35,582 bases of DNA from IMG/VR virus record IMGVR_UViG_3300041403_001008, positions 1 through 35,582 of that record; one strand, 5' to 3'. This DNA comes from a virus. The notes beneath the pieces were generated by a model. It did not search any database and was not told the origin of the DNA. It was given only the letters and a program-made list of their open reading frames with translations. A program made the translations under genes and the position numbers. Of the stretch, positions 4,569-10,919 are shown piece by piece (positions within the stretch are counted from its first letter, which is position 1; every line of letters begins with the position of its first letter).

Positions 4569-6773
4569 ATGGGCTTCAAATACAAGAGCGGCGCCTCGAA
4601 GCGCACCGAATTCAACCCCGACGACGCACCCTTGCCGCCGAGCGTGCAAGAGTATCTCGACGGGCCCGTGCCCGAGGGTGGGCGCAACCGCGCACTCTTC
4701 AATGCGGCGGGGCAATTCCGCGACATCGGCGAGAGCAAAGAAGAAGCACTCGCGCTTCTCGGCTCGAAGGCGATGCGCGACGGCTTGCCCGAGAGCGAAG
4801 TGCGCACTTGCATAGAGAGCGCTTACAATCAACCGCCGCGTGAGGCGCCCCGAGCGAAAGGCAAGAGCGCTTCACCCAGGGGCGGCGGGCGCCGCGTGAG
4901 CGACTACACGCTCAAGCGGGGCACCTTTGCGGGCTCGAAGCCCGAGCAAGTCGCGCCCGTCAAGACGCTCGAAGAAGCGACGCCGATGACGGTGCCCGCA
5001 CCGATTGAAGAAGACGGCTTCGAGAGCTTCTTGCTTGCCGCCTTCGAGGAAGGCGAAGGCGTTTGCCTTTCTCGCGGGCGCGAGCTCGACGACGGGACAA
5101 TCGCGCCCGACGTCGGCGTCACGCTTGAGCGTGAGAAATGGCTCGAAAGGGTAAGGCGCAAAGGCGACGTCACGAAAGTCGAAAGCACGAAGCTCGGGCT
5201 TTACGTGCGAATGAATCCGTTGAAGCCGCTCTCGAAGCGCAACCTCAACGAAGACGTCACCGCCTTTCGGCACGTTCTCGTCGAATTCGACACCGACGCG
5301 AACGGCGAGACGATTCCGAAAGAGAAGCAATTCGGCATGATGCTCGCGAGCGATTTGCCCATCACGGCAATCATCGACTCGGGCAACAAGAGTTTGCACG
5401 CCTGGGTGCGAGTCGATGCCGAAGACGCCGAGCAATATCGCGAGCGCGCCGAGAAGATTTACTCGCTCTTTCCAGATGTTGACGAACAAAATCACAACCC
5501 GAACCGACTGAGCCGCGCGCCCGACGGCTTTCGCACCGTCAACAACGAAGTCAGGCGGCAACGGCTTCTCAAGCTCAACGTCGGCGCGCAAAACTTCGAG
5601 GCATGGGAAGCGCTCAACGAGGCGAAAACGCAAGGCGAAGGCTACACGCTCGACGAGCTTCTCGCCTATGACGTCGAAAATGATCCGAATACCGTCATCG
5701 GGCAACGATGGCTTTGCAAGAATGGCTCGCTCGTCATCGTTGCGCCGTCGGGCGTCGGCAAGTCGGCGCTCACGTCGCAACTCTCGCTCGGGTGGAGCAT
5801 CGCACGCAACGACCTCACCTTCGGCATCGAGCCCATCAAGCCGCTTCGGCAACTCATTCTTCAAGCCGAGAATGACAAAGGCGACCTCGCCGAAGGGCTT
5901 CAAGGAATCATCAAGGGCGCGAAGCTCTCGACCGCCGAGCGCCGCAAGGCGAACGAAAATCTCTTCTTTCGTCGCATCACGACTCTCACGGGCGAGGCAT
6001 TTTTGCACGCCGTCGAGGGCTTCGTGCAACTTCACCGCCCCGACATTTGCTGGATTGACCCGCTTCTCAACTTCATCGGCGACGACGCCAGCAAGCAAGA
6101 AGTCATCGCTCGCTTTTGCGTCGAAGGGCTCAACACAATCGGGCACCGCACCGGCACAATCTTCGCCCTCATTCATCACACGGCAAAACCGAAGACCGCC
6201 GCCGACAAGAAGGGGCAAACTGCAACCGACCTCGCCTATGCGGGCTTTGGCTCATCGGGGCTCACAAATTGGGCTCGCGAAGTCATGGTGCTCGACCGCG
6301 TAGAAGTGCCCGAGGGCGAGCCGCCGACGTTTACTTTGACCGCGTGCAAGCGACGACTTCGTGCGGGCATGAAGACGATGACGCCCGACGAAGACGGCGC
6401 GCCGATGGACGGGCAGCCGACCGCGCAAATTTACATTCGGCACTCGACCGACCGCATCGCCTGGGTGCAATGCCCGAAGCCCGAGAGCGAAGAAGACGAG
6501 AAGCCGCGCGGGCGCCGAGGGGCGAAGAGGGGCGACGACTCCAACAACCCGAAAGGGCGCCCGAGCTCGCTCACCGATGCGCAACGCCTCGACATCGCCG
6601 ACGCCGTCAACGCGAACGGCGGCGACCCGCGCATCGGGCCCGAGGCGACCGACGCGCTCGCGCGCAAAATCGGGAAGCACCCTCGAAGCGTGCAACGCTA
6701 CCTCAACGAAGTCGCCGAGCGGGCGGCGAAGGCTCGCGAAGAGCTCATCAAGGAAGGGGCAATCAAATCATGA
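4569..6773 (+). CDS. Primase-polymerase fused to RepA-like replicative helicase
   Basis: 734 residues. Residues 45-92 resemble a PriCT-type helical module. Residues about 150-340 look like an archaeo-eukaryotic primase domain: EFDTD (239-243) as the metal-binding acidic pair, HAWV (277-280) and NPNRLSR (310-316). The second half is a RecA-fold ATPase of the RepA/AAA_25 kind, with Walker A APSGVGKS (392-399), Walker B CWIDPLLNF (494-502) and the HHTAKP motif (536-541). The basic C-terminus ends in an HTH-like stretch (HPRSVQRYLNEV) that could bind the origin. Such PrimPol-helicase fusions can prime, synthesise and unwind in phage replicons with no separate polymerase. No other DNA polymerase is seen in this window, and an origin-like region lies 1.3 kb downstream. 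Confidence 0.85.
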   Translation: MGFKYKSGASKRTEFNPDDAPLPPSVQEYLDGPVPEGGRNRALFNAAGQFRDIGESKEEALALLGSKAMRDGLPESEVRTCIESAYNQPPREAPRAKGKSASPRGGGRRVSDYTLKRGTFAGSKPEQVAPVKTLEEATPMTVPAPIEEDGFESFLLAAFEEGEGVCLSRGRELDDGTIAPDVGVTLEREKWLERVRRKGDVTKVESTKLGLYVRMNPLKPLSKRNLNEDVTAFRHVLVEFDTDANGETIPKEKQFGMMLASDLPITAIIDSGNKSLHAWVRVDAEDAEQYRERAEKIYSLFPDVDEQNHNPNRLSRAPDGFRTVNNEVRRQRLLKLNVGAQNFEAWEALNEAKTQGEGYTLDELLAYDVENDPNTVIGQRWLCKNGSLVIVAPSGVGKSALTSQLSLGWSIARNDLTFGIEPIKPLRQLILQAENDKGDLAEGLQGIIKGAKLSTAERRKANENLFFRRITTLTGEAFLHAVEGFVQLHRPDICWIDPLLNFIGDDASKQEVIARFCVEGLNTIGHRTGTIFALIHHTAKPKTAADKKGQTATDLAYAGFGSSGLTNWAREVMVLDRVEVPEGEPPTFTLTACKRRLRAGMKTMTPDEDGAPMDGQPTAQIYIRHSTDRIAWVQCPKPESEEDEKPRGRRGAKRGDDSNNPKGRPSSLTDAQRLDIADAVNANGGDPRIGPEATDALARKIGKHPRSVQRYLNEVAERAAKAREELIKEGAIKS

Positions 6774-7045
6774 ACACGACACGACACGAACACGGCAACA
6801 AGGGCAAGTTTCGCCCGAGCAAAAACTCGCCCCATTTCTACGGCATCGTGAGAAGCGAAACCGAGCAACGAGAGCTCGAAGCCGAAGAGAGAGAGCTCAA
6901 GAATTGCGCAATCGTGCGCCGAGCGTGCGACGCCTTCTTCGAGCGTCGAGGGCTCGACATCAACAACCCCATCGAGCCGCCCCCGTGGAGCGACACGCTC
7001 ATCGAGGCTTGCTTCGAGCGCAACCTCACGCTCGCGACGGCGTGA
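6770..7045 (+). CDS. Small protein coupled to the primase gene
   Basis: 91 residues from ATG 6770, which overlaps the primase stop as ATGA. The N-terminus is Arg/His/Lys-rich, the middle is a charged helix (ETEQRELEAEERELKNCAIV), and the end has NNPIEPPPWSDTLIEACFER. No family recognised. Translational coupling and a strong terminator 5 bases after the stop make it the last gene of the replication transcript, so it is likely an accessory of the primase-helicase. Confidence 0.65.
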   Translation: MNTTRHEHGNKGKFRPSKNSPHFYGIVRSETEQRELEAEERELKNCAIVRRACDAFFERRGLDINNPIEPPPWSDTLIEACFERNLTLATA

Positions 7046-7049
7046 CGAG

Positions 7050-7074
7050 AGCCCCGCTTCGGTGGGGCTTTTTT
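7050..7074 (+). terminator. Intrinsic terminator after the replication block
   Basis: Stem AGCCCCGC / GTGGGGCT with a TTCG loop followed by six T residues. It directly follows the stop at 7045 and precedes a class A plus class B promoter region. Confidence 0.9.
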
Positions 7075-7090
7075 GCGCCTGGGAAAAAAA

Positions 7091-7140
7091 TGCGCATTTT
7101 TATGCAAAAAGAGCTTGCATGACAAGCCCCTTGTGATAAT
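7091..7140 (+). promoter_or_regulatory. Class A dyad followed by class B promoter/operator
   Basis: TGCGCATTTTTATGCA (7091-7106) is a class A-like site. It is followed by TTGCAT (7115-7120), the perfect palindrome ACAAG-CCC-CTTGT (7122-7134) and GATAAT (7135-7140) in an extended -10 context (TGTGATAAT). The start codon at 7149 lies eight bases after the -10-like box, so the mRNA would be leaderless or nearly so. The 14-base spacing between TTGCAT and GATAAT is constant in all four class B copies. Confidence 0.7.
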
Positions 7141-7148
7141 CTTACAAC

Positions 7149-7346
7149 ATGAACACCGAGCAAATTCTAAACATCCTTCATCAAGCCGATTGCGCCTCTT
7201 CCTTCCTTCAATCTGATTCAGCACCTCAGAAGCTCGAAGAAGGCGGCAAGCGCTTCGCTAATCAAACCGAAGCAAACCGCGAGCAACTCAAGAAGGCGGC
7301 AAGAGACTTGCAAGCCGCCCTTCGCGCTATCCAGCACGCAATGTAG
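7149..7346 (+). CDS. Class B cassette gene 1: small helical protein
   Basis: 65 residues, Gln/Ala/Glu-rich and predicted all-helical (REQLKKAARDLQAALRAIQ). One Cys, no membrane segment, no recognisable family. It sits alone between two terminators (7050-7074 and 7367-7391) and behind its own class B promoter with almost no leader. It is therefore an independently transcribed unit, the usual build of a phage moron or early host-takeover gene. Such genes often encode anti-defence or host-modulating proteins, but nothing in the sequence shows which. Confidence 0.65.
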   Translation: MNTEQILNILHQADCASSFLQSDSAPQKLEEGGKRFANQTEANREQLKKAARDLQAALRAIQHAM

Positions 7347-7366
7347 ATCAACCCGAGCGTGACGAG

Positions 7367-7391
7367 AGCCCCGCTTCGGCGGGGCTTTTTT
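7367..7391 (+). terminator. Intrinsic terminator after cassette 1
   Basis: AGCCCCGC / GCGGGGCT stem with TTCG loop and a run of Ts. The sequence around it (GTGACGAGAGCCCCGCTTCG) closely repeats the terminator at 7050, suggesting that the cassette arose by duplication or insertion between like terminators. Confidence 0.9.
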
Positions 7392-7410
7392 GCGCTTGGG
7401 AAAAAATCGA

Positions 7411-7463
7411 AAAAGTGCACTTTTTTTACCTTTTCACTTGCACCGCAAGCCCTTTGTGATAGA
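7411..7463 (+). promoter_or_regulatory. Degenerate class A site and class B promoter 2
   Basis: GTGCACTTTTTTTACC near 7415 is a partial class A site. TTGCAC (7438-7443) is followed after the invariant 14 bases by GATAGA (7458-7463). The operator is imperfect: GCAAG-CCC-TTTGT. The ATG at 7472 is again eight bases after the -10-like box. Confidence 0.6.
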
Positions 7464-7471
7464 GTCTTCAC

Positions 7472-7702
7472 ATGCAAACGAACAACATCACACTCGCCAT
7501 CAATTCCGCAATCGTCGCCGCCGCCGAAAAGCACGCCGACCAATACGCACAAGTCACCGACAAATATCTCTTCGCCGAGAGCGAAGTTGATTCTCTTCGA
7601 GACGCTCAAGGCTTCATCGTCGAGCGCATCACGCCGCAAGAGAGAAGGCTCTTGATTGCGAGATTTGAAGACACCGCCGACGAAATCATCGAGAAGCGAT
7701 AA
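7472..7702 (+). CDS. Class B cassette gene 2: small acidic protein
   Basis: 76 residues, acidic, helical (TLAINSAIVAAAEKHADQYA...). No family recognised and no resemblance to the cassette 1 protein beyond size. Its promoter is the second class B copy. It is followed after 7 bases by a GC-rich hairpin lacking a T-run (7710-7727) and then by another small gene, so here read-through into 7751 is likely. Confidence 0.65.
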   Translation: MQTNNITLAINSAIVAAAEKHADQYAQVTDKYLFAESEVDSLRDAQGFIVERITPQERRLLIARFEDTADEIIEKR

Positions 7703-7750: not shown

Positions 7751-7993
7751 ATGAAAAAAACCGTTTACTTCATCGCTTCACTCACCGAGGGCATCGCGCT
7801 CGGGCACGATATGCGCCGCGACTTCGCCGCACACTCTCACGGCACCCGTGACAAGGCGAAGGCTATCAAATGGCTCGCCGATTGCCGCGCGAAATTGCCC
7901 GACGCTTCGATTCATCTCTTCTCGACGCCGAGCTTCGTGCTCGACGAGAGTGCCGAGCTCACCGAAGAGCTCGTCGAGCCCGCGACCGCATAG
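7751..7993 (+). CDS. Small protein, unknown, in the cassette region
   Basis: 80 residues beginning MKKTVYFIASLTEG; first strand hydrophobic, then a basic helix (RDKAKAIKWLADCRAKL) and an acidic tail. The N-terminal stretch is not long enough for a convincing signal peptide. The leader (CAACTCCAACATCAAGAACACC) is A/C-rich and lacks a Shine-Dalgarno sequence. It has no class B promoter of its own and probably depends on read-through from 7472. A clear terminator follows 20 bases after its stop. Confidence 0.65.
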   Translation: MKKTVYFIASLTEGIALGHDMRRDFAAHSHGTRDKAKAIKWLADCRAKLPDASIHLFSTPSFVLDESAELTEELVEPATA

Positions 7994-8012
7994 CGACTCG
8001 GCGCCCTCGAAG

Positions 8013-8042
8013 AGCCCCTCGATTCGCGTCGAGGGGCTTTTT
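8013..8042 (+). terminator. Intrinsic terminator before the non-coding region
   Basis: AGCCCCTCGA / TCGAGGGGCT stem with a six-base loop and a T-run. It ends transcription of the small-gene cluster and shields the structured region that follows. Confidence 0.9.
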
Positions 8043-8096
8043 CGCGCGTTGCAGGAATTACGCAACAATCTCTTTTGTTGCAAGAAACTTGCACGA

Positions 8097-8133
8097 GACA
8101 AAAATGACAAAATTGAGTTTTGTAATTTTTGTC
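8097..8133. repeat. Long AT-rich palindrome of GACAAAA words
   Basis: Arms 8097-8112 and 8118-8133 pair with one mismatch around a five-base centre (TTGAG). Each arm is built from GACAAAAAT and ACAAAA. The outer flank TTTTGTCTTGAG can instead pair with CTCAAGACAAAA at 8185-8196, giving two competing folds. Confidence 0.75.
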
Positions 8134-8153
8134 TTGAGCTCGGCATAAATTGA

Positions 8154-8168
8154 GGCTCAACGACTTAC
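8154..8168 (+). repeat. Direct repeat copy 1 (GGCTCAACGACTTAC)
   Basis: Exact 15-base repeat of 8233-8247, 79 bases apart, inside the structured region. The flanking inverted repeat GGCATAAAT/ATTTATGCC lies just before each copy, so the two repeats look like paired sites around a folded core. Confidence 0.8.
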
Positions 8169-8232
8169 TACTAAAAAAGAGCCCCTCAAGACAAAACTCT
8201 CGGGCATTTTTGTCATTTATGCCAGTATCGAA

Positions 8233-8247
8233 GGCTCAACGACTTAC
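8233..8247 (+). repeat. Direct repeat copy 2 (GGCTCAACGACTTAC)
   Basis: Second exact copy of the 15-base repeat at 8154-8168. It is followed by GCAAGACGAGG rather than the TACTAAAAAAG found after copy 1. Confidence 0.8.
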
Positions 8248-8321
8248 GCAAGACGAGGTTCGAAAATGGCACTTTTGTCTTTTTGTTTTGTCGCGAAATT
8301 TTCCCCTCTCAATTCTCCCCG

Positions 8322-8356
8322 AGCCCTTGCACGGCGGGGCTTCGAGCCGAAGGGCT
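8322..8356 (+). repeat. Two-level hairpin inside the TTTTGTCGCG inverted repeat
   Basis: AGCCCTT (8322-8328) pairs with AAGGGCT (8350-8356), enclosing a second small hairpin GGCT-TCG-AGCC (8338-8348). The whole structure is flanked by the 10-base inverted repeat at 8286-8295/8361-8370, giving a nested cruciform-like arrangement. Confidence 0.6.
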
Positions 8357-8379
8357 TGCTCGCGACAAAATACGAAAGC

Positions 8380-8434
8380 AAGCCCCTCGCTCTTCTTTCC
8401 CTTCCAAGGGGAAGGAGAAGAGCGAGGGGGGCTT
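8380..8434 (+). repeat. Very long hairpin, about 25-base arms
   Basis: Left arm from AAGCCCCTCGCTCTTCT through TTCCCTTCC and right arm GGAAGGAGAAGAGCGAG through GGGGGCTT are nearly complementary, with a few bulges and an AAGG tip. It has no T-run. The size exceeds the usual terminators of this phage; it may be a structural RNA element or part of the origin. Confidence 0.7.
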
Positions 8435-8546
8435 ACGCCCTTTCTAATTGTTGTCGCTCACGCGCTCTTCCCTTCGGCTCAATACCCCGCCAAGCAACCC
8501 TGGCGCCGAAGGCTTTTTGTCACCCTGACACTTTCACCTTGCGAAG

Positions 8547-8562
8547 TGCATTTAAGTGCGCA
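8547..8562 (+). promoter_or_regulatory. Class A site upstream of the HTH regulator
   Basis: TGCATTTAAGTGCGCA, differing from the 614 copy at one position. The ATG of the regulator follows 11 bases later, giving a very short leader. If the regulator binds class A sites, this copy would make it autoregulated. Confidence 0.6.
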
Positions 8563-8573
8563 CCCTATCGCGC

Positions 8574-9128
8574 ATGGACCCCGAAAATTCCGCCCCTTAC
8601 GATGCGCGACGATCCGCGCTAGATGAAGAATACAAGACCGCATTTAATGACTGGCTCGCGAGCTTGACGTCCGAAGAGAGAAAGCAAGCCGAAGAGCTCG
8701 GCGTTGCTTCGCCTCATATCGACGCGCAAGGCGTCGGCGCCCCCGAGCTCGACACCGACCGACTCGCCGACGAGGGCTTCATTCCTGACTTCGACTTCGA
8801 TGAGCCCGAGAAGGAAAAAGCCGAACTCAAGCAAGCTATCGACCGACAAGTCAACCGGCAAGTGCGTCGCGTTATTGTCGAGCTTCTCGAATCGAAAAAC
8901 GCCCGCCTCACCGTCGAGTGCATCGCGCTCGTCACCGGCATCGGTTATCTCGGGATTTCCGAAACGAGCATCGCGAAAAAATTCAACGTAACCCGCGCGG
9001 CAGTCTCGAAGAGATGCGTTGAGCTTTGCGACAAGCTCGGCTTGCCGCCCTCGCGCTCGATGAAGAGCACCCAGGCGCGGGCGAGCTATCGCAAAAGCCG
9101 CAACCGCGTCGTCGAAGAAGAAGGTTGA
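8574..9128 (+). CDS. HTH DNA-binding regulator (sigma-70 region-4-like)
   Basis: 184 residues from ATG 8574; a GTG at 8556 lies inside the class A site and is rejected. The N-terminal 85 residues are acidic; a helical segment (KQAIDRQVNRQVRRVIVELL) leads to a helix-turn-helix at about 131-156, SIAKKFNVTRAAVSKRCVEL, with the form of sigma region 4 or a MarR-like recognition unit, followed by a basic tail (RASYRKSRNRVV). It probably binds DNA as a transcriptional regulator of the phage. Its position just after the non-coding region, with class A sites on both sides (8547 and 9146), makes it the first candidate for recognising class A sites. Similar proteins are remembered from Verrucomicrobiota-type prophages; this is not verified. 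Confidence 0.75.
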   Translation: MDPENSAPYDARRSALDEEYKTAFNDWLASLTSEERKQAEELGVASPHIDAQGVGAPELDTDRLADEGFIPDFDFDEPEKEKAELKQAIDRQVNRQVRRVIVELLESKNARLTVECIALVTGIGYLGISETSIAKKFNVTRAAVSKRCVELCDKLGLPPSRSMKSTQARASYRKSRNRVVEEEG

Positions 9129-9145: not shown

Positions 9146-9161
9146 TGCATTTAGGTGCGCA
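9146..9161 (+). promoter_or_regulatory. Class A site upstream of 9218
   Basis: TGCATTTAGGTGCGCA, followed by a long A/C-rich leader (CTAACAACAACCCCCCATC) as after the 614 copy. It lies between the regulator gene and the 9218-11137 gene group. Confidence 0.6.
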
Positions 9162-9217: not shown

Positions 9218-9388
9218 ATGAGCCCCGAGGAACACGAGAGCCGAATGAGAGCAACGCGCGTTGCGATTCAAGGCGCCTTTGAATTCGACCGGCAACGCCG
9301 ACGCCAGCAAGAGCTCGCTCTTGGCGCTTTTGTCGTAAGTATCACCGCCTTTGTCGTCGGCTTTATGCTTGGGGCTTTGATTTTTTAA
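9218..9388 (+). CDS. Small tail-anchored membrane protein
   Basis: 56 residues from ATG 9218 (upstream GTG at 9155 is inside the class A site). Charged N-terminal part (RATRVAIQ...FDRQRRRQQE) and a C-terminal transmembrane segment at about 35-56 (GAFVVSITAFVVGFMLGALIF), so the basic domain should face the cytoplasm. It ends 3 bases before the next gene. No family recognised. Confidence 0.6.
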   Translation: MSPEEHESRMRATRVAIQGAFEFDRQRRRQQELALGAFVVSITAFVVGFMLGALIF

Positions 9389-10209: not shown

Positions 10210-10296
10210 ATGACGGAATTTTTTATGACAATCGCAATTTGCTTCGCCGCGATGGGCGCTTTGCTTGGGATGATTGACGGAATGCTCTCGCAATGA
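10210..10296 (+). CDS. 28-residue membrane peptide
   Basis: ATG 10210 to TGA 10296, too short for most gene finders. The sequence MTEFFMTIAICFAAMGALLG is one hydrophobic span. The stop overlaps the ParB-like start (ATGA at 10293), the coupling pattern used throughout this phage, which supports real translation. The 86 bases before it hold no other gene. It may act mainly as a translated leader for the next gene. Confidence 0.4.
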   Translation: MTEFFMTIAICFAAMGALLGMIDGMLSQ

Positions 10297-10919
10297 AAGC
10301 ACTCACCAACAACGGCGACATTTTCGTCACCAATGAAATCGAGATACTCGCCGACGACGACCTCATCGACCGCAAGGGCAACTCGAAGAAGCACCCGCCC
10401 GAGCAACTGGCAAGGCTTGCGGGCGCGATTCGCGAATTCGGCTTCACCGTGCCGCTTCTCGTCGATGAAGGCAACGTCATCATCGCGGGGCACGGGCGGC
10501 GCATCGCGGGGCGCTCGGTCGGCATGGAAGCCTTCCCGTGCGTGCGGGCTTCGCATCTTAACGCGGGGCAAGTGCGCGCGCTCGTGCTCTTTGACAACAA
10601 AATCGCCGAGACGGGCTTCGACCCCGCTCTTCTCAAGGTCGAGCTCGAAGAGCTTCGCGACCTCGATGAAGAGCTTCTCGGGCTCACGGGCTTCGATGCC
10701 GCCGAGCTCGACAAGCTCACCGCCGACCTTGAAGGCGACGATGACGAAGGCAATGACGGCGACGAGCCGAAGGCGCCCGAGCTTCGCTTCGGCGAGCAAA
10801 AAATTCCGATGAGCGGGCCCGAGCTTCAAGCGCTCGAAATGCTCGCCGAAACCTATCTCAAGAAGCACGGCGACTTCGTCGGTTTCGTCGAGAAAGCACT
10901 TCTCAAAGCGCACCGATGA
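10293..10919 (+). CDS. ParB/Srx-fold nuclease-domain protein
   Basis: 208 residues. The N-terminal 120 residues are a ParB/sulfiredoxin-like domain: KHPPEQLARLAGAIREFGF (substrate helix), VPLLVDEGNVIIAGHGRR with the signature GHGRR at 66-70, and DNKIAETGFDPALL near 101-115. In phages this domain is usually found in ParB-like CTPase/nuclease proteins or fused to DNA methylases near the terminase genes. Here it stands alone, with an acidic tail (EGDDDEGNDGDE) and a final helical part. No methylase domain is present in this gene, but a C5-methyltransferase-like gene lies at 16802. The function may be DNA binding or modification support; nuclease activity is not shown. Confidence 0.8.
   Translation: MKALTNNGDIFVTNEIEILADDDLIDRKGNSKKHPPEQLARLAGAIREFGFTVPLLVDEGNVIIAGHGRRIAGRSVGMEAFPCVRASHLNAGQVRALVLFDNKIAETGFDPALLKVELEELRDLDEELLGLTGFDAAELDKLTADLEGDDDEGNDGDEPKAPELRFGEQKIPMSGPELQALEMLAETYLKKHGDFVGFVEKALLKAHR

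Follow-up and report, generated by a model that had tools for sequence, protein, structure and literature searches.

We analysed a window consisting of the whole 35,582-base virus record IMGVR_UViG_3300041403_001008 from IMG/VR (positions 1 to 35,582). The window encodes a 734-residue primase-helicase (4569-6773, plus strand), identified with Pfam and Foldseek and considered here as the candidate initiator, which is followed by small open reading frames and, 1.3 kb from the gene, by a block dense in repeats (8043-8545). A terminator-like hairpin followed by a run of T (8010-8041, plus strand) is recognizable as an inverted repeat between the gene at 7751-7993 and the block, and is absent from the list returned by the terminator scan. 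The next gene after the block encodes a conserved regulator with an HTH (8574-9128, plus strand), assigned from its relatives and a weak HTH_11 match. A near-identical 16-nt site, which we regard as a candidate operator, occurs upstream of the regulator (8547-8562) and again upstream of the following gene (9146-9161); the relative L002 carries a similar 16-nt site just after its regulator. Further along lie a ParB-like gene (10293-10919) and the terminase genes (about 14.0-16.8 kb), with terminase and portal genes contained within about 14-19 kb. No tRNA was found in the window, and neither a megablast search of positions 1-24000 nor a distant blastn search of the block returned a match among phage records.

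Repeat structure and folding of the block

The word TTTTGTC, or GACAAAA on the opposite strand, occurs 12 times in the 35.6 kb of the window, and nine of these copies, as the original prediction had counted, fall inside 8097-8521 in both orientations. A word scan places TTTTGTC on the plus strand at 8127-8133, 8208-8214, 8273-8279, 8286-8292 and 8515-8521, and on the minus strand (GACAAAA on the plus strand) at 8097-8103, 8106-8112, 8190-8196 and 8364-8370; the three copies outside the block are at 9328, 14551 and 18848. Over 1000 dinucleotide shuffles of the block the word averaged 0.17 copies, with a maximum of 3, and any 7-mer at nine copies was encountered in 2 of the 1000. Among 197 repeated-word segments of the window the block ranks first. 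As is typical of an iteron origin, a short word is concentrated here in many copies, in this case 1.3 kb away from the putative initiator gene.

A repeat scan confirmed the additional structure that had been described for the block. The palindrome is present at 8091-8139 and carries iterons in its 22-nt arms (8091-8112/8118-8139, 86% complementary), while the direct repeat, reported as 15 bases long, proves to be an exact 16-nt repeat on the plus strand (8153-8168 and 8232-8247). An exact scan of IMG/VR for this repeat returned 25 contigs with one match each, which we took as chance. The further inverted repeats and the hairpin were found as well, with 19 inverted pairs listed in 611 bases over the block region and a GC-rich hairpin at 8383-8429 whose outer arms (8383-8396/8416-8429) pair perfectly over 14 bp. 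Near this hairpin lie the iteron at 8364 and a partial inverted word at about 8451, and a long-range inverted repeat with 28-nt arms encloses it (8327-8497; 8327-8354/8470-8497, 82%). The suggestion that pairings compete within the block is borne out by a perfect 12-nt pairing between 8127-8138 and 8185-8196. The description of the block as AT-rich holds for its left half (8043-8300), where a GC content of 0.40, against 0.58 in the window, provides a stretch suited to melting; it does not hold for the rest of the block, which at 0.58 equals the genome.

Folded as RNA, the region 8043-8570 yielded a z-score of -8.8, and the block itself (8043-8545) yielded -8.0 for the plus strand and -8.5 for the minus strand; the z-scores of 15 other 503-nt windows of the genome ranged from +1.2 to -5.2. 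The equal folding of both strands is as expected of DNA dyads and singles out no RNA strand. Rfam returned no match at gathering score in the window. The best sub-threshold match of the scanned region (E 9.7e-05; 26.4 bits, where the gathering score is 48) is located at 7950-8044, before the block, and the 25 sub-threshold matches obtained with an E-value limit of 10, mostly to microRNA families, were disregarded. GC skew, put forward as a check on the origin, displays no turning point at the block (8 kb) and so lends it no support, in a test that is weak either way in a 35-kb co-directional fragment.

Domain architecture of the primase-helicase

From its N-terminus, the primase-helicase comprises PriCT_1 (residues 29-88 by Pfam), a primase domain with AEP motifs recognized by eye, a RepA-type helicase domain (AAA_25, residues 376-541) and a C-terminal HTH. 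PriCT_1 precedes the primase-family match, which starts at residue 153; Pfam found no primase-domain match in the primase-helicase set. Among 18 aligned members, Pfam detected PriCT_1 in 10 and AAA_25 in all 18, and the EFD and SLHAW stretches are invariant in the alignment, their assignment to motifs I and II being by eye only. A Foldseek search with the full model placed RSF1010 RepA best (E 4.9e-10). The protein has the published architecture of 'InversePrim', in which PriCT-1 comes before the primase and is fused to a RepA-family helicase (PMC5862659), a source whose accessible portion names no origin for the family.

The C-terminal domain (80 residues, 6531-6770, plus strand) is predicted to be a three-helix homeodomain-like HTH and constitutes the candidate reader of the iterons. 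Its AlphaFold2 model has a mean pLDDT of 82.8. Foldseek ranked homeodomains best with an E-value of 0.03, with none at E<=0.001, and VIA-align gave a best Z of 9.8, a range in which helical domains often score. Many of the matching homeodomain structures were solved on DNA.

Comparable blocks in Verrucomicrobiota relatives

A profile of three primases retrieved 80 loci in IMG/VR and 11 in GTDB genomes, all 11 of the latter titled as Verrucomicrobiota; relative loci are designated here by L-numbers. The window regulator used alone as a query retrieved no relative in IMG/VR. Most relatives keep the order of primase-helicase and then regulator, with the block between them, and a comparable block built on a different repeated word usually lies directly 3′ of the primase-helicase gene, closer than in the window. 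The nearest relative, L002, has between these two genes its own block, with 8-11 copies of AAAGAAA and a perfect 18-bp hairpin, and similar blocks with other words occur in L029-L034, L045, L046 and L107-L109. The repeated word is thus GACAAAA in the window, AAAGAAA in L002, AAGTAAG in L029 and GGAAAAA in L030, L031, L033 and L034, with CTGCAA, CTGACA, CTGCCA and others among further relatives.

The ranking of blocks covered loci whose primase match was at 1e-40 or better and whose sequence extended far enough beyond the gene. For the 21 loci with an HTH-type tail, the window included, the top word of the block marks the strongest repeated-word segment in 13, including L047, whose block was located after inspection of the results, and falls within the top four in 19, the lower ranks belonging to L032 (6 of 36) and L040 (16 of 98). 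The blocks of many relatives hold a long perfect hairpin that is the best of its locus, and the GC-rich hairpin at 8383-8429 is the counterpart of this central hairpin. Across ten aligned blocks, eight stems are without mismatch other than G-T, their arms having changed together.

Absence of the block from relatives, named in the original prediction as counting against an origin, was seen at the gene end in L003, L049, L050 and L110, the block being present in most relatives. The primase of L003 ends without an HTH tail, and the joint lack of tail and block in this locus favours a pairing of the two. In L050, a dense CCTTTGC array lies upstream of the primase gene (about 5976-7500) and not downstream. 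The primase reading frame of L108 (749-3061) runs on through the iteron block without a stop, and L044, L054 and L064 have a small gene after the block whose product resembles, by eye, the primase C-terminal domain of the GTTTGAA clade.

An open reading frame crosses the block in two large clades of relatives, which supplies another reason for conservation there. In the GTTTGAA clade, the small frame is open in all 15 loci examined (e.g. L052 8828-9073, L066 2155-2400), begins by the primase stop and ends over the regulator start, and its substitutions by codon position (1274/1646/2094) represent a weak coding signal. Repeat ranks in this clade are mixed, with many at 1-7 and L053, L075, L083 and L084 at 22-26. 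Because of the frame crossing the block and these mixed ranks, the clade is not used here as key evidence.

Covariation of iteron word and C-terminal domain

Close relatives illustrate how word and C-terminal domain vary together. In the core of the protein, L036 shares 85-86% identity with L035 and L109, as against 41-45% in the C-terminal domain, and it has the word GCTGACA instead of CTGCAA; with L042 it shares both the C-terminal domain (79%) and the word GCTGACA. When ten aligned blocks are divided into two groups, 12 of the 26 scored iteron columns differ, compared with 8 of 53 other columns (Fisher p 0.005). In the Verrucomicrobiota set of 21 loci, word and C-terminal domain show a partial correlation of 0.24 given the core (12 of 2000 permutations), and word and core one of 0.13 given the C-terminal domain (178 of 2000), in permutation tests that treat loci as exchangeable and ignore shared descent, many relatives not being independent. 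Taken alone, the partial correlation in this set is modest.

A second set consisted of 25 named Firmicutes phages, six picked by genus and 19 more for diversity, drawn from 49 records that reached 80% coverage or more, a selection that omits duplicates and some distinct records. In 23 of them, the 7-mer repeated most often in the fetched stretch belongs to the gap 3′ of the primase-helicase, the misses being Castelnaud (14 of 106) and Javan161 (4 of 52). In these 25 phages the word correlates at 0.80 with the C-terminal domain and at 0.49 with the core, and the corresponding partial correlations are 0.74 (0 of 2000 permutations) and 0.23 (31 of 2000).

A scan along the protein in 19 Streptococcus phages gives correlations with the word of -0.09 to 0.10 as far as residue 665 (-0.09 for residues 606-665, just before the C-terminal domain) and of 0.56, 0.75 and 0.83 in the last three protein windows (the last ~100 residues). 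The flank after the gap correlates with the word at 0.07, as measured on flanks of unequal length. GGACA words number 7-18 in each of the 10 Streptococcus phages that have the helix SEKT(I/V)RRW, and of the nine without it seven carry none and the other two 1 and 6, with both the motif and the GGACA threshold chosen after inspecting the data. By these sequence comparisons, the word tracks the C-terminal HTH and not the rest of the primase-helicase. The sharp boundary at the domain, a downstream flank that does not follow the word and iterons that changed in concert make a functional pairing the more likely explanation, and do not amount to proof.

Alternative explanations

The word might instead follow the C-terminal domain merely because the two are neighbours that are exchanged together, the word having no binding partner in the domain. 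Phages do recombine as modules and the C-terminal domain adjoins the block, yet the correlation is limited to that domain, being lost both in the residues that precede it and in the downstream flank, and the iteron copies have changed in concert inside an otherwise conserved spacer, so that we consider this explanation unlikely. It is also rather improbable that the block is an operator region whose words are sites for a phage regulator, such as the 8574 protein, controlling transcription from the block. Its position just upstream of the regulator, the terminator-like hairpin that precedes it and the 16-nt operator-like repeat at 8547 and 9146 are all consistent with such a role; the consensus scan, however, found no promoter-like site on the plus strand, and it is the primase-helicase whose C-terminal domain the word follows. 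Moreover, the recognition helix of the regulator (TRAAVSKRC or a close variant) is present in nine of the ten loci whose available tail reaches it, L047 being the one that differs. Since this helix is nearly constant while the words differ, the regulator is probably not the reader of the word. The original prediction had proposed either this regulator or the HTH end of the primase-helicase for that part, and the latter is favoured because the word follows it.

The other alternative raised in the original prediction, that the plus strand yields a structured non-coding RNA, would account for the strong predicted fold (z -8.8) and for hairpin arms that change in step among relatives. It is weakened by the equal folding of the minus strand, the lack of any window match to Rfam at gathering score and the presence of words in both orientations, as well as by words that differ between relatives and the lack of a sequence match in phage records, and we regard it as very improbable. 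We think equally little of the possibility that the block is a site of partition, incompatibility or packaging (pac/cos) and no origin: iterons also mark partition sites and the window does contain a ParB-like gene, but that gene is found in only a few relatives, the terminase genes lie far from the block, and the neighbour that recurs beside it among relatives is the primase-helicase.

A candidate replication origin

Viewed as a whole, the stretch looks like the replication start of a Verrucomicrobiota phage. We read the repeats, their recurrence beside this gene family with phage-specific words and the correlation between word and C-terminal domain as marks of a candidate iteron origin at 8043-8545 that is recognized by the C-terminal domain of the primase-helicase itself, a reading in which binding and origin activity are what we infer and to which we assign a probability of roughly 0.78. 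The proposal of an iteron-bearing replication origin thus appears supported by the recurrence of the iteron block beside the same primase-helicase family. In the proposed mechanism, copies of the primase-helicase would bind the GACAAAA words through their homeodomain-like HTH, and several bound copies would assemble as a helicase ring. The ring would open the AT-rich left half of the block (8043-8300), and the primase domain would then begin to copy the strand that had become accessible, at a point of entry or priming that may be determined by the GC-rich hairpin. Among literature titles on origins of Verrucomicrobia phages, on coevolution of primase-helicases with iterons and on RepA origins in Streptococcus phages, we found no report of a pairing between word and primase-helicase.

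The alpha protein of P4 combines primase-helicase activity with a C-terminal DNA-binding domain. Replication in that system proceeds by one protein and its cognate ori (PMC6092414), and we compare it here by description. In SaPIs, the C-terminal domain of Rep recognizes iterons directly downstream of its own gene (PMC7581432), and in PICI origins two iteron sets flank an AT-rich region (PMC6092414); iterons have been described in a satellite origin as well (PMC7145576). The blocks compared here share with the systems of PMC7581432 and PMC6092414 element-specific words, an arrangement of iterons around a central element and, for most relatives, a position of the iterons immediately 3′ of the gene for the initiator helicase. 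They differ from them in that the initiator is a RepA-type helicase with a PriCT-1-first primase, in that the centre is a GC-rich hairpin instead of an AT-rich stretch alone, and in the displacement of the window block by 1.3 kb, with small ORFs between, whereas the blocks of relatives are mostly directly 3′.

The SCCmec helicase Cch2 also has a putative origin downstream of its gene, made up of direct and inverted repeats that its C-terminal domain binds in vitro (PMC7581432). That system differs in its separate primase and AAGTG iterons, and PMC7581432 does not demonstrate its replication in vivo. In the pRN1 plasmid a large stem-loop follows the primase-helicase gene on the 3′ side and is conserved in its structure and not in its sequence (PMC4234260), as are the hairpins compared here; the pRN1 protein, unlike ours, has an SF3 helicase and a winged helix, and the stem-loop is the required element of pRN1. 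The Sfi21-type origin (Per) is likewise a non-coding origin-like element in a Streptococcus phage replication module (PMC6356513). It is from the analogy with the SaPI, SCCmec, PICI and pRN1 systems that we regard the candidate block as an origin, and operation in the manner of the SaPI, P4 and pRN1 origins appears to be the best explanation for it.

Beyond this locus, we lean slightly towards the view that a readable origin code is common to the InversePrim-type phages of Firmicutes and of Verrucomicrobiota. In this code a few residues of helix 3 would set the iteron word, and C-terminal domain and block would be exchanged together as a single specificity cassette within replication modules that are conserved in other respects, perhaps through origin competition between co-infecting phages. 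The block provides a concrete origin candidate for the InversePrim family, and the differences in word and C-terminal domain between many close relatives constitute a natural experiment in origin choice by an initiator. If phage origins do switch specificity by cassette swap, this would bear on origin-based phage resistance of the Per type.
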